Shown here: positions 1,959 through 9,797 of the stretch, piece after piece
Position numbering within the stretch: the stretch's first letter is position 1
Layout: each line of letters opens with the position of its first letter
Source: an uncultured Pseudomonadales bacterium
GTDB taxonomy: Bacteria > Pseudomonadota > Gammaproteobacteria > Pseudomonadales > Azotimanducaceae
NCBI GenBank assembly: GCA_905182155.1
Contig: CAJJAX010000007.1
Span: 1-64,000 of the forward strand
DNA length: 64,000 bases
Direction: 5' to 3'
Notes under the pieces: model-generated
The model's input: only the letters and a program-made list of their open reading frames with translations
Database searches by the model: none
Told to the model about the DNA's origin: nothing
Program-made: the position numbers and the translations under genes

Positions 1959-2933
1959 TTATCGTAAGTAACCGATGCTTTGCATCAGGGATCGTATCTG
2001 GTCCTCCTGACGTTCCAAAAACGAATAAAATGCATCCCCTTCAATATGGTTTTCTGCCCAGCCATTTCGAAGTCGAATGTCATTAAAAACCGATGATTCT
2101 GAAACAGTCCGGAGGGTATATCGCATCCGCTCATATTGGGCATCGGGAAGCCCTTTCGCTGCGAAAAAGCCGCGCCAGTTGGCAAAAACCAAATCAACGC
2201 CCTGAGATTTTAACAAGGGCAGGTCTGATAGCTGAGACAGCGGGCGGGGTGCTGTGACCGCAATGATTCTGAGTAATCCCGCTTGATGCATTTGTAAGGC
2301 TTCGCTGAGACCCGTGGACAGGACTTGGGTTTCTCCTGAGAGTAAGCCCGCTGCCGCCTTGCCACCGCCATCATAGGCTAGATAGACCAGTTGCTTTGGG
2401 TCTGCGCCAGTAAGTTGCAGCGCCTTTGCCAGGACGAAATGGTCGGTATTGCCTCGAACCGATCCACCTGCGACGACAATGGATTTAGGGTCGGCTTTAT
2501 AGCGCTGGGCTAGGTCAGAAAAATCCTGGATGTTGGAATCGGCACGAACGGCGAAACAGCTGTAGTCGGCGATCATTGCAGCAATGGGCACAAGATCTCG
2601 AAAGGATTGTGGAAAGACACCCTGTAGCGCCCGCACGATGATGGGGGTTGAGCTGATGAGCAGTGTATTGTGCTGTCGTTCAGCGGTTTCAATCAGTTTC
2701 GCAATGGCGCGGCCGCCACCACCGCCGGCGGCGGGGTTTCCTCAGGTGCTCGAGACCGATTGCGTTTGGCTCAGCGCAAGGCCGACACCTCGAGCGGTAC
2801 CATCCCAACCGCCGCCTGGACCTGCTGGGATCAAGAAGTGAACGCGCTGCAGTCCCGGATCGGCTGATCTAGCACTGGGTCCGAGGCCGATCAAAAGAGC
2901 CAGTGACAAGGCGAGGGTTACGAGTTTCCGCAC
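1959..2933 (-). pseudogene. tctC: TctC-type periplasmic binding protein interrupted by an in-frame TGA
   Basis: This encodes the extracytoplasmic solute receptor for the TctAB permease. A GTG start at 2933 gives a signal peptide (MRKLVTLALSL...ARSA) and then the family segment IPAGPGGGWDGTARG. A TGA codon at 2742-2744 (about residue 64) stops the frame. Reading continues in the same frame with GGGGGRAIAKLIETA and runs to a normal C-terminus (SIGYLR) at 1959, giving about 324 residues in all. No frameshift is needed, so this is a nonsense codon. It lies where the family has a short variable link before the glycine-rich loop. The gene overlaps the serC-like stop by one base (TAGTG). It may be a true pseudogene, a base-call error or a read-through case. 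Confidence 0.82.
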
Positions 2934-5508: not shown

Positions 5509-7527
5509 TTAAGGCTGCAGCAGCCAGCCGTGCCGGGTTTGCCAGACAAGCCTTAAGCCAGCAATAGGCGGGATAAAATCGTGAGACCTTAACTCGATGG
5601 TGAGGCCCGTCCCTAACAGCTGGCGTAAGGTGTCTTGCATGACCTCGCAGGCCACAATGACGCTCGGCAGTTCAAGGACCAAAGTGCCAGGCGCCTGATA
5701 CAAAGCGCGAGTGAGGATCAAGCGGGCTGTCTCGGATCGATCAAAGCGGTGCTGATCGGGCCCAATCACCGTGTCCAATCCGAAGGGATGTTGGTTAATT
5801 GCGTCGAGCAACGCCATTTTCCGGATTAAATGCTCGACCCGGGCGCGGTCTGGCACGGCCGCCATCATGGTGATGTTGGCCAGGATCGTCGTGTTAAAAA
5901 TGGCGTCGGTTGCAAAAGCGGTTGCAATCGGTAACGGTCGGTAGATTGCGCCTTGGTCTCTGCCGGTCTCCGCCTTTGAATCGGGTTTAGACCCAGGGGT
6001 AAGGATTGCGTGACTGGCAGCGGAGAAGGACGACGAGGAGGCTAGCCGCTCATATCGTAACGCCCCGATTTGGGTTGATTGGGTTGGGTTTGCAAGCTTT
6101 ACCGTCAGATTGACCATCGGCAAGGGTGGATCAATGACCTTCAATCCGGCGCTGGCAGTGATATCGGCGGCGGCAATGAGGTCGCGGAGGTCCCGCCGGA
6201 TATCTTGGGCTGAAGCCGCACCCGTAAACTGCTGGCAGATGGATAAAACGTGTTGGGTTAGAAGTCCCCGATAGGCCAATATGAGGTAGAGCCCGCCGAG
6301 GGTCATGTGCCCAGCCATGGTCTGGAAAGCTATCCAGTAGAGTACGATGCTCAAAGAGACCCCCGTTGTGAGTTGGTGCGCCAAGGCCATTGACGCCTTG
6401 CGATGAGTGCCGAGCGATTGCTGGTGATGGGATTGATGTAGGCCTTGGTTTATTCTGTGAAGGAAGGGTTGTTCTGCGCCGTAACGCCGAATTTCTTCGC
6501 CATGATTGAGTAATTCCATGAGATGTTCCAGGCGCGTCTGTTCTGAGAGGCCCGCGAGTTTTTCTGCAGAGGCAATCTGTGGCGTAAACCAAAGGCTGAG
6601 ACTGATGAGCACTGCACTGGTGAGTATCATGAGGAGCGCCGTCTCTGGATTGATTAAAAATAACGTGCTCACAAGCGCAATCGCCAGCAACAGATCGCCC
6701 AATATTTGGACCCCCTCCGCGCCATAGAATTGACCGAAGTGATGAAGGTGCTTAACCCGTTTAAAACAGGTCTGGGCGGCGAGGGGACCGAGTGTCCCGG
6801 ATGGCGCGGCCGTGAGGTTTTTGAGTAGCCGGCGCAGGGCATTTTGCTCGAGGTTCTGACTGCAGCCCAGCATTAAACGCGCCTGCAAGTGGGTCATAAG
6901 TGGTGCCGCAATCAAAATCAGAAGAAACCCCATTGTGGTCGATTGTAAGAGGGCAATATCGTGGCTCATGACAATATCGTCCAGAATGAACTTGATAATG
7001 AGCGGGATGCTGGCCTGTAGCGCGCCAACCATTAGGAAGAAAATCAGTGCCACCAGTTGATCGCTCTGTAGCTTTAAAACCGGGGAACCTCGTAGTGATG
7101 ATTGGCCTGGCATAGCGCCCAATCGGGCCTCGATCTCAGGCTGGAAGGTTAAAGCGATGCCGGTGAAGTGATCCTTTAGAGCCTGCCTGTCCACAGACAG
7201 GCGACCCATGGCCGGATCATCAATGATATAGCGGCCCCAGCGAATGGCTCTGAGGACCACGAAGTGATTCAGCTGCCAGTGCAGAACGCAGGGAAGGGTT
7301 AGTGCTGCCAGTTCTGCGGGTTCTAGTTCAATGGCCTGACCACTGAGTCCCAGGTGGGTTGCGTTCAAGATCATGTCAGCCGCTGACCACTGCTGGTCTG
7401 AGGGGCCATGCACGGCCTCGAACTGGCAGGCGTTGGTTTGGCCGCCAAAGTGGTGATCGATCATGATCAAGGCCGCCAAGCCGCAGGCAGTTTGACGGTG
7501 TTGCAGAATGGCATTACCGAGGGCCAA
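5509..7527 (-). CDS. C39-peptidase/ABC-exporter-like protein with a degenerate nucleotide-binding domain
   Basis: A 672-residue protein laid out like a peptidase-containing ABC exporter. Residues 1-130 are a C39-type peptidase that keeps Q9, C15 (QTACGLAAL), H88 (NHFVVL) and D104 (IIDDPA). Residues about 155-440 hold the membrane domain. Residues about 460-672 lie where the ATPase domain should be, but its motifs are gone. There is no GxxGxGKS Walker A; the signature LSGGQ is replaced by FDRSE in HRFDRSETARLILTRAL; the Walker B acidic pair reads LVLELP. A switch histidine (RSHDF) remains. The frame is uninterrupted, so the decay is by substitution. It overlaps its HlyD partner by 14 bp. Probably a peptidase or scaffold that no longer hydrolyses ATP. 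Confidence 0.75.
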   Translation of the reverse strand: MALGNAILQHRQTACGLAALIMIDHHFGGQTNACQFEAVHGPSDQQWSAADMILNATHLGLSGQAIELEPAELAALTLPCVLHWQLNHFVVLRAIRWGRYIIDDPAMGRLSVDRQALKDHFTGIALTFQPEIEARLGAMPGQSSLRGSPVLKLQSDQLVALIFFLMVGALQASIPLIIKFILDDIVMSHDIALLQSTTMGFLLILIAAPLMTHLQARLMLGCSQNLEQNALRRLLKNLTAAPSGTLGPLAAQTCFKRVKHLHHFGQFYGAEGVQILGDLLLAIALVSTLFLINPETALLMILTSAVLISLSLWFTPQIASAEKLAGLSEQTRLEHLMELLNHGEEIRRYGAEQPFLHRINQGLHQSHHQQSLGTHRKASMALAHQLTTGVSLSIVLYWIAFQTMAGHMTLGGLYLILAYRGLLTQHVLSICQQFTGAASAQDIRRDLRDLIAAADITASAGLKVIDPPLPMVNLTVKLANPTQSTQIGALRYERLASSSSFSAASHAILTPGSKPDSKAETGRDQGAIYRPLPIATAFATDAIFNTTILANITMMAAVPDRARVEHLIRKMALLDAINQHPFGLDTVIGPDQHRFDRSETARLILTRALYQAPGTLVLELPSVIVACEVMQDTLRQLLGTGLTIELRSHDFIPPIAGLRLVWQTRHGWLLQP

Positions 7528-8746
7528 GGTGCGCTCCTAACTCTGGCGCGATCATTGCCGCAAAGCGTTCAATGAGTGTTTTTTCCGAAACAATGAGCCA
7601 GGTTTGGGCTTGGGTGCCGGCGGTAAAGTGAAGGCGCTGGCCGGTTGAGGTGATGATGGGCTTGGGTAAGGAAACGGTTGCGATTAAATCGGTTGGGCTC
7701 TGTGTGGAGCGGGGCGGGTCGCTCACTGAGATTGGGGATAGATCGCGTATTGTGCCCGAAATACTGCCATCCATCGGGGTTAAATGGGTGAGCAATTTTA
7801 GGTCTAATGGATCGCCCACACTGAGGGCGGTTTGAATGGCCTTGGGGACTCGAAGCTTTGCCAGGTAGTAAGGCTTTGTCGTTGCAAGTTCAATGATGGG
7901 CGTCTTGTGGGTGACAAAATCGCCAGGTTCCGCAGCTCGTCTAACAACTCGCCCGGGGCTGGTGGCGGCGATGGTTCGCCTGAGTGCGTTGCGCCACTGT
8001 TTTTCCTGACGGCTGCGGTTATGGCGTTGACGTTGGGCCTGAACTTCAGCACGCTGACCATCGAGTTTTGCCGACTTGAGGTTGGCGCGCGCAGACGCAA
8101 GCTTAAACGCGAGGTCTGCTCGTTCTGATCGAAGATGAACAACTCGCGTCGCTAAAGTTCTGAGTGGTGCCTGCATTCGTTGCCACTCGATGGCTGAGAT
8201 AAACCGGCTTTGAAACAGATCGCGCGCGGCTCTAAGCGCTTTCTGCTGCTGTTTTAAATGTTCCGTCTCCAGATTGATCAAGGTTTGCCGCCAATGCTGT
8301 TGTTGGGTGAGTAGACTGATTTCGCCGCGGATCTTTCCGACCAACAGGGTCTGCTGTTGTTGATTGATTTGATATTCCCGTTGGCGCGCCCGGGCCTCAA
8401 AACTGAGATCTAGCGCTGAATCCGCTTGGGGTGACGGTGGCAATGGGGTGATGTAGGCGATGACCTTGCCGGGCTCAACGATGTCGCCCACTTGAACGGC
8501 AATCGCTTGTATTTGACCGCTGGTGGCGGCTGTTTGAACCAGGGTTTTGGGCTCGTACAGATAACCGCTTAAGAGGACGCGGTCGGGCAGCGGCACGAAG
8601 CCGAGAAGCCCGGTGAGCACCAACGTTAACGCACTCGCAATCATGACGCGTGCGGCGGTACTGATTGGATCGGACGTCAGCCCGCCAAAGGTTGCATTGC
8701 GGCGTGACACTTGCCTTGCCCGGGCGCGAAAGAGTAATGGATTCAT
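7514..8746 (-). CDS. HlyD-family membrane fusion (periplasmic adaptor) protein
   Basis: A 410-residue adaptor of type I secretion systems. The chosen start is ATG 8746 (MNPLLFRARARQ), because the frame upstream lacks family character. A cytoplasmic N-terminus is followed by one membrane helix near residues 33-52. Then come the first lipoyl half-motif (TSGQIQAIAVQVGDIVEPG), a long coiled-coil rich in Q, E and R (about 105-255), the second lipoyl half (SPGRVVRRAAEPGDFV) and a beta-barrel domain. It is the first gene of a two-gene unit with the C39/ABC-like gene. No outer-membrane TolC gene and no double-glycine leader precursor were seen nearby, so the exported substrate is unknown. Confidence 0.85.
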   Translation of the reverse strand: MNPLLFRARARQVSRRNATFGGLTSDPISTAARVMIASALTLVLTGLLGFVPLPDRVLLSGYLYEPKTLVQTAATSGQIQAIAVQVGDIVEPGKVIAYITPLPPSPQADSALDLSFEARARQREYQINQQQQTLLVGKIRGEISLLTQQQHWRQTLINLETEHLKQQQKALRAARDLFQSRFISAIEWQRMQAPLRTLATRVVHLRSERADLAFKLASARANLKSAKLDGQRAEVQAQRQRHNRSRQEKQWRNALRRTIAATSPGRVVRRAAEPGDFVTHKTPIIELATTKPYYLAKLRVPKAIQTALSVGDPLDLKLLTHLTPMDGSISGTIRDLSPISVSDPPRSTQSPTDLIATVSLPKPIITSTGQRLHFTAGTQAQTWLIVSEKTLIERFAAMIAPELGAHLGPR

Positions 8747-8957
8747 TTTTGACTCAATGAAAAACCCGGGATCATAGGCTCGAAATTGAAGTGTTACCGC
8801 CGCAATGGGTGCGACAAATGGTGCGAAAGGGCGCCCGTTGCGGACTGTTTTCGCCCGCTGCCGGTGTAAACAGGCAGCATTGCAATCGATTTTGACCCGG
8901 ACTAGGATGCTTAAAAGGACGGTTTCAGTCCTTGCCATCAGATCAGGAGGTCCTGCG

Positions 8958-9797
8958 ATGTCGCTTTCCTTAGTGGGTGCCAATGAGGCGGGCTGTCTCG
9001 CCGGCCGTGTTGCCGTGATTACAGGGGCCAGCCGCGGCATTGGTGAAGCGATTGCCTATCGGTTTGCCCAAGCGGGCGCGAAGGTTGTGGTTTCCGCAAG
9101 AACTCTCTCTGATGGAGACCATGTTTTAGCTGGAGGCATTTCGAACGTTGTCGCGACGATCGAGCGGTTGGGTGGGCAGGCATTAGCGGTGCGCGCAGAT
9201 ATTGGCCTTGCAGAACATCGCGAACACCTCATTGATCAGGCAGAAAGCACGTTCGGTCCGATCGATATCTTGGTGAACAATGCGGCAGTTACCTACTTCG
9301 AACGGGTCCGGAACTTCCAAAAAAAACATTTTGACTTAATGTTCCGGGTTCAGGTGGAGGCACCTTTTGCGTTAGCTCAGAGCGTGCTGCCCGGGATGAT
9401 TGAGCGCCGGCAGGGCGCGATTCTTAACGTGAGCTCTCATGCAGCACGCCACCCTGCCATTGATGTTGGGGGCCGAGGCGGAACGGTTTATGGGATGTGT
9501 AAAGCGGCGCTTGAGCGCTTTTCCACGGGCCTTGCCTCGGAAGTATTTGATCAGGGGATTGCGGTGAATGTGATTTCGCCAGGCCTCGTTGCGACCCCTG
9601 GGGTTCTGCACCACAATTTAATTAATGAAGATACCCCCGCGGATCGTGTTACGCCGATTGAGCATATGGCAGAGGCTTGCTTAAGGCTGGTACACGGCGA
9701 TCCAAGGCGCCTGACCGGTTTAAACACCTATGCCGATGACGTTATGAAACAGTTTAATTTGGCGCCTCAGACGCTGCCCCCGCTGCATGGCGTCTGA
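8958..9797 (+). CDS. Short-chain dehydrogenase/reductase (SDR) family oxidoreductase
   Basis: A 279-residue classical SDR. The start ATG 8958 follows a strong ribosome binding site (CAGGAGG, 7 bases upstream); the open frame further upstream is not protein-like. It shows the Rossmann motif TGASRGIGEAIA, the NNAAV motif after strand 4, a serine in ILNVSSHA, and YGMCKAALE as the catalytic Y-x3-K. These predict NAD(P)-dependent oxidation or reduction of an unknown alcohol or ketone. It is divergent from the HlyD gene, and its 3' end overlaps the 3' end of the MATE gene on the opposite strand by 44 bp. Confidence 0.86.
   Translation: MSLSLVGANEAGCLAGRVAVITGASRGIGEAIAYRFAQAGAKVVVSARTLSDGDHVLAGGISNVVATIERLGGQALAVRADIGLAEHREHLIDQAESTFGPIDILVNNAAVTYFERVRNFQKKHFDLMFRVQVEAPFALAQSVLPGMIERRQGAILNVSSHAARHPAIDVGGRGGTVYGMCKAALERFSTGLASEVFDQGIAVNVISPGLVATPGVLHHNLINEDTPADRVTPIEHMAEACLRLVHGDPRRLTGLNTYADDVMKQFNLAPQTLPPLHGV

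Follow-up and report, generated by a model that had tools for sequence, protein, structure and literature searches.

A C39 peptidase-ABC exporter homologue that appears to have lost the nucleotide-binding part of its ATPase domain in a gammaproteobacterial clade

What defines an ABC exporter is its ATPase. The window, a 64,000-nucleotide stretch that forms part of contig C7 from an uncultured bacterium of an apparently marine group (as judged from isolate names), encodes a C39 peptidase-ABC exporter homologue belonging to a clade in which the peptidase, half of the ATPase domain and the path through the membrane are kept and the ATP-binding part is dropped. What appears to be gone is chiefly the half of the ATPase domain that would bind nucleotide, the other half being conserved, and this clade-wide form is apparently under purifying selection. 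It is plausible that the protein works without ATP. We tentatively propose, with confidence that falls somewhat short of even, that a microcin-type exporter has become a leader peptidase, anchored in the membrane and independent of ATP, which acts on a 54-residue prepeptide. If this is true, the peptidase function of PCAT proteins would be separable from ATP-driven transport, or else the scaffold would move its peptide by other means. A graded series at one locus (loss of the Q-loop residue, loss of all motifs, deletion), together with a candidate substrate, makes the question directly testable.

Architecture of the window protein

The gene lies on the minus strand at positions 5509-7527 and encodes 672 residues plus a stop codon, beginning with TTG; the plus strand over the same interval is full of stops. 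The window's genome, a 2.3 Mb assembly that is 72.7% complete, has one C39 match. An initial sequence-only reading had described a frame intact over 672 codons that retains the C39 triad and the membrane domain, and all of this holds, the form being shared across a clade of the genus. The peptidase domain (residues 1-131; 7135-7527) matches Pfam Peptidase_C39 at 1.8e-24, and the membrane domain (residues 147-448; 6184-7089) matches ABC_membrane, PF00664, at 2.4e-16. The peptidase tetrad Q9, C15, H88 and D104, a kept feature at the level of sequence, shows no change in any of the 9 rows of our alignment A1, and the leader-pocket residues A49 and I53 are present. No Pfam match to ABC_tran (PF00005) was returned for the protein in a scan with a limit of E 10, where HMMER filters discard most matches above about 0.1, and the best NCBIfam model, NHLM_micro_ABC1, scores 155.8 bits, far below its cut-off of 853.3 bits.

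The register of the ATPase motifs was taken from an alignment of 28 C39-ABC proteins and from a profile alignment to PCAT1. At the Walker A site, which reads GPSGCGKS in congeners, the window protein has a stretch that is three residues shorter and lacks the glycines and the lysine of the motif. Both alignments place FDRSE (residues 595-599; 5731-5745, minus strand) at the site of the LSGGQ signature and LELP (residues 618-621; 5665-5676, minus strand) at Walker B, with E619 at the position of the Asp and L620 at that of the catalytic Glu. The absence of Walker A and the substitutions at the signature and Walker B, all described in the sequence-only reading, are thereby confirmed. The Q-loop Gln is also gone. 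A point new to the present analysis concerns the H-loop, whose His, H649, persists in the window protein and its five nearest relatives and is absent from more distant degenerate proteins.

A model of the protein was predicted with AF2 from 17 sequences (mean pLDDT 72.8, pTM 0.52), among which canonical ABC proteins were included that may impose the ATPase fold; prediction from 4 sequences gave a mean pLDDT of 35.7. Confidence is high in the membrane domain (pLDDT mostly 80-93) and fair in the peptidase. The linker and lost P-loop half (residues 449-530; 5938-6183, minus strand), which have no Walker A, score mostly below 50, and most of residues 451-531 is predicted to be disordered. A folded block follows at about residues 534-650. 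It lies in the retained half of the ATPase domain (residues 531-655; 5563-5937, minus strand), which comprises the helical subdomain, the signature helix and a Walker B strand without catalytic residues, and in which block means are 71-90 over residues 541-650. Foldseek places PCAT1 chains in the first four matches (best 2.9e-23), with HlyB next; the arrangement of domains in the model is unreliable, rmsd being mostly 15-23 Å over the full length. Structure prediction of residues 450-672, which had been suggested as a check, thus returned a P-loop half of low confidence and a folded second half, and from the model the P-loop half appears to have been lost and the helical-subdomain half kept.

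The gene is preceded by a frame for an HlyD-family membrane fusion protein (7514-8749, minus strand; HlyD_3, 1.3e-9), whose start is likely the ATG at 8749, as in orthologues, within a longest frame of 7514-9040. The two overlap by 14 nucleotides (7514-7527), and the coupling noted from the sequence is also kept in evolution, the pair being present in 10 of the 15 genus genomes. Elsewhere in the window, a gene that we take to be TctC-like (1959-2933, minus strand) is seemingly split into frames of 63 and 225 residues, relatives being mostly about 324 residues long, as a result of either a true frameshift or a sequence error.

Distribution and selection within the genus

Among the 15 genus genomes sampled, the degenerate form stands behind HlyD in ten (G000, G002-G007, G009, G011 and G014), with the frame broken in G009 and cut at a contig end in G004. 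Homologues with the same losses, which the sequence-only reading had proposed to seek, therefore exist in nine further genomes, and this rules out an assembly or frameshift artefact, or chance. Three congeners (G001, G012 and G013; L045-L047) carry at the same locus a transporter with Walker A, LSLGQ and, where it could be read, Walker B. In these the Q-loop Gln is replaced, by G in G001, by D in G013, and in G012 by an incompletely read codon, GNC, that cannot encode Gln; this is perhaps an early step of motif loss. G008 (94% complete) carries a remnant (L048:8085-9052, minus strand) in which the N-terminal 153 residues of HlyD adjoin the last 169 residues of the degenerate ATPase domain, the rest having been deleted, and G010 (84% complete) yielded no C39 match.

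The order metA, MATE, SDR, HlyD, C39 protein, TLC/MFS-like gene, with family names taken from a Pfam scan of the window, is the same, as far as contigs reach, in 13 of the 14 genomes compared (all except G010); on the 4-kb contig of G006 only the last three genes are visible. Because congeners that have the motifs and those that lack them share this order, replacement by an unrelated gene is ruled out. A tree built on the C39 and membrane columns only sets the nine unbroken degenerate proteins apart from 19 others as a single clade (98/98); the branch leading to G006 is long, and the position of this genome in a tree of neighbouring proteins is unsure. The sequence-only reading had held that homologues with canonical motifs in the same subfamily would speak against it. 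Three congeners with Walker A and B do occupy the locus, but, taken with the tree and the synteny, they point to a lineage-specific loss and not to an error.

Degeneration of this kind was not seen as a common property of the family. The comparison covered a sample of matches outside the genus, 67 C39-ABC genes from the family and 3 from other families of the order (the frame of one, L166, is broken), and Walker A was found in 70 of 70. The signature and Walker B were found in 67 (66 by pattern scan, plus L196), and the other three genes end at contig ends before these motifs. A search of titles and abstract openings, mostly from outside subscription journals, returned no C39-ABC protein with a lost ATPase. 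In G046, a member of another family of the order, a 67-residue frame with a double-glycine leader (L049:7382-7582) lies between HlyD and a canonical C39-ABC gene; it matches the XyeA model at 6.8e-5, below the cut-off.

Pairwise dN/dS (NG86) was calculated for six close sequences, five for the C39 domain, in which many pairs are saturated with dS above 1. The values were 0.08-0.20 for C39, 0.11-0.35 for the membrane domain, 0.27-0.96 for residues 441-530, the loosest part in most pairs, and 0.14-0.26 for residues 531-672. In the closest and least saturated pair, G005-G002, they were 0.20 for C39, 0.15 for residues 531-672, and 0.35 for both residues 441-530 and the membrane domain. Among computable pairs, HlyD gave 0.15-0.24 (8 pairs), against 0.01-0.08 for metA and mostly below 0.12 for the neighbouring genes, so that the HlyD/C39 pair is fast-evolving yet constrained. 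The distribution of invariant columns follows the same division. Among the nine degenerate proteins, 24 of the 124 peptidase columns, 6 of the 291 membrane-domain columns, none of the 90 columns in residues 441-530 and 9 of the 120 in residues 531-650 are invariant; the corresponding figures for the 19 canonical proteins are 13, 7, 6 and 11. Invariance has thus been lost at the P-loop (0 versus 6) and is about equally kept in the other half (9 versus 11). When neutral evolution was simulated to 0.25 substitutions per site, none of 500 whole frames remained open, and the last 142 codons alone remained open in about 5%.

These results bear on the view that the system is a vestige in slow decay, having lost first the Q-loop residue, then the P-loop and signature, and then whole segments, with little function left. 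The view accounts for the graded series itself, from the three Q-loop losses through the ten sets of lost motifs to the frame break in G009, the deletion in G008 and the lack of a C39 match in G010, and also for the speed at which the operon evolves. It sits poorly with frames that are open where neutral ones would be broken, with dN/dS well below 1 in C39, the membrane part, the retained half of the ATPase domain and HlyD, and with an invariant catalytic triad, and we consider it quite unlikely.

A candidate prepeptide and the proposed function

The search for double-glycine precursors that the sequence-only reading had suggested gave a divided answer: a candidate exists in the genus, but it is unlinked to the C39 locus, and nothing convincing was seen beside the locus itself. 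By eye, the intergenic stretches read in 10 loci held no convincing precursor, and of three hits to a regular expression run over the 64 kb window none was convincing. The candidate, found after a scan with bacteriocin-leader models, is a 54-residue prepeptide (for example L209:1501-1662 in G007) with a 15-residue leader ending in GG and a 39-residue core. It is present in 12 of the 15 genus genomes, including the three whose transporter keeps Walker A and B. The leader in all 12 copies is hydrophobic at -12, -7 and -4 and has G at both -2 and -1. The core, hydrophobic and acidic (GRAVY 1.34, charge -4), is identical in five species, with a core dS of 0.32-1.27 in the five pairs compared, and differs by 3 to 9 residues in wider pairs compared. 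An NCBIfam scan of three copies gave no model above cut-off, and in 191 other genomes of the family there were three weak matches (E 9e-6 to 1e-3), of which that in G197 resembles, by eye, a distant relative.

In 11 of 12 contigs the prepeptide gene has a beta-lactamase-family hydrolase gene on one side and pntB on the other, with a rhomboid gene intervening in three; the G010 contig ends behind it. Inspection by eye identified AGGAG shortly 5' of the start in 8 of 12 copies, and an inverted repeat after the stop in five, two or three of which also have a clear T-run. The prepeptide was not found in G014 (80% complete) or G006 (62% complete), and its absence from the window's genome is uninformative because the syntenic contig stops within the small pntA gene and so misses the expected place by one gene. 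A rhomboid-family protease gene (PF01694, 2.5e-11; G001 copy L245:7962-9140, minus strand) lies directly behind the prepeptide gene in G001, G012 and G013. It was seen there only in these three genomes, whose transporters have Walker A and B, and is missing at that position in seven degenerate genomes and in G008; its absence from that place in the degenerate genomes that could be read is a further point in favour of slow decay. Other frames in the genus, L198 and L208 (G001:C40) and L199 (G013:C160), encode long leaders ending in GG, which are presumably Nif11-like, and Cys-rich cores; in G001, a distance of some 5-7 kb separates L198 and L208 from a second C39-ABC gene, which is canonical.

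The leader peptidase that we propose would have arisen from a microcin- or bacteriocin-type PCAT, similar to CvaB and with an HlyD partner. In one clade of this gammaproteobacterial genus the ATPase would have become a pseudo-domain by losing its P-loop half and keeping the other as a structural block. In ABC exporters, the half retained here is the one that faces the coupling helices. The protein would then be fixed in a nucleotide-free, inward-facing, cleavage-ready state, where it would cut the genus-conserved prepeptide after GG, and the freed core may enter the membrane or an HlyD conduit without ATP. The available text on PCAT1 states that ATP binding inhibits the protease and that cutting, for which the transporter core is needed, takes place while the protein is nucleotide-free and inward-facing and the peptidase is docked (PMC6959990). 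A protein unable to bind ATP that still had its docking surfaces would be held in this state, as we propose for the window protein. The same source describes A55 and I59 of PCAT1 as holding the leader (PMC6959990). These "knot" residues align with A49 and I53 in our profile alignment, and since their counterparts are kept the peptidase should still recognise double-glycine leaders. Work on LahT, as far as its accessible text goes, models the leader in a groove between the protease and the ATPase domain (PMC6363468), which would give a reason to keep a pseudo-ATPase.

Motif losses in 10 of 15 genomes, at one syntenic locus and in one clade, purifying selection, frames that neutral drift would have closed, the kept triad and leader pocket, and a prepeptide with a conserved leader and core in 12 of 15 genomes all argue for the leader peptidase. 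Other observations count against it. G008 and G010 have the prepeptide and no C39 match; the prepeptide is also present with Walker A/B transporters and so does not track motif loss; it was not seen in the window's genome, where the contig ends, nor in G014 and G006; and the two genes are unlinked, so that their pairing is putative. The operon evolves faster than its neighbours, and the G009 frame is broken. Furthermore, PCAT1 couples cleavage strictly to transport, from which an uncoupled peptidase would be a departure, and the retention of HlyD suggests that something still crosses the envelope.

This last point leads to the view that the protein is still an exporter, acting through its membrane domain and HlyD/TolC and driven by the proton motive force, by a separate ATPase domain that docks, or by pulling from outside. 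HlyD is under purifying selection, and the membrane domain has been retained and is predicted with good confidence. A TolC, which the sequence-only reading had advised looking for, is represented in the window's genome by two frames with OEP/TolC-type domains (contigs C30 and C39), whose presence, as gene content, makes them possible partners, and many other ABC ATPases are encoded there. Genus frames of roughly 725-775 residues matching PF00664 with similar scores occur in both kinds of genome; we take them to be LapB-like, and one of them, in G007:C38, has a weak match to the C39 model (1.1e-6). Against this stands the composite nature of the ATP sites: in the accessible text of PMC7756269, one half must supply Walker A/B and its partner the signature for each site. 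The window protein offers neither, so a pair formed with a normal ABC half would contain no complete site, and an ATPase supplied in trans by such pairing is less likely. We regard the exporter reading as unlikely overall.

A non-transporting regulator or sensor, whose peptidase and membrane portions would bind or cut the peptide and signal via the pseudo-ATPase domain, would agree with constraint on the retained half without its catalytic residues, and with a nearly invariant peptide core, as would suit a signal better than a toxin in an arms race. Among the neighbours of the two loci, part of which were Pfam-scanned, no gene for a regulator, kinase or receptor was recognised, and we think this reading improbable.

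Beyond the leader peptidase that we prefer lies a broader and more doubtful possibility, namely an ATP-free processing and translocation machine in which the pseudo-ABC scaffold and HlyD would mature the genus peptide and hand it to the membrane or envelope. The Walker A/B congeners without the Q-loop Gln would then be frozen intermediates, and the rhomboid protease part of an older pathway.

Comparison with known systems

Transporters of the HlyB/LapB type keep their ATPase, and FapD is a stand-alone C39 peptidase. The window protein resembles FapD-like peptidases in having a C39 domain without a working ATPase, but differs from them in keeping a membrane domain (the PF00664 match), half of the ATPase domain and HlyD. 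With type I secretion transporters of the HlyB/LapB kind, which have a C39-like domain, it shares its architecture and its HlyD and TolC partners. They are nevertheless its mirror image, since the accessible parts of the literature on them report no proteolytic activity (PMC6363468, PMC10986499), whereas the window protein has C15 and lacks the ATPase motifs.

Degenerate-site ABC exporters such as TmrAB, TAP and Pdr5 are similar in that departures from the ATPase consensus have been kept by evolution. These proteins, according to the portion of the source available, retain one canonical site in the heteromer or full-length protein (PMC7756269), whereas the window protein offers neither side of one. 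The closest likeness is to the PCAT/AMS proteins (PCAT1, LahT, and CvaB of colicin V), with which it shares a C39 domain with its triad and leader pocket, an exporter membrane domain and an HlyD partner, and from which it differs in having no Walker A, signature, Q-loop Gln or catalytic Glu and in the loss of the P-loop half. Judged by its sequence, the window protein is a descendant of a PCAT of the colicin V kind and would work like one, but it lacks the ATPase feature by which the class is defined, and we do not place it among the PCATs.
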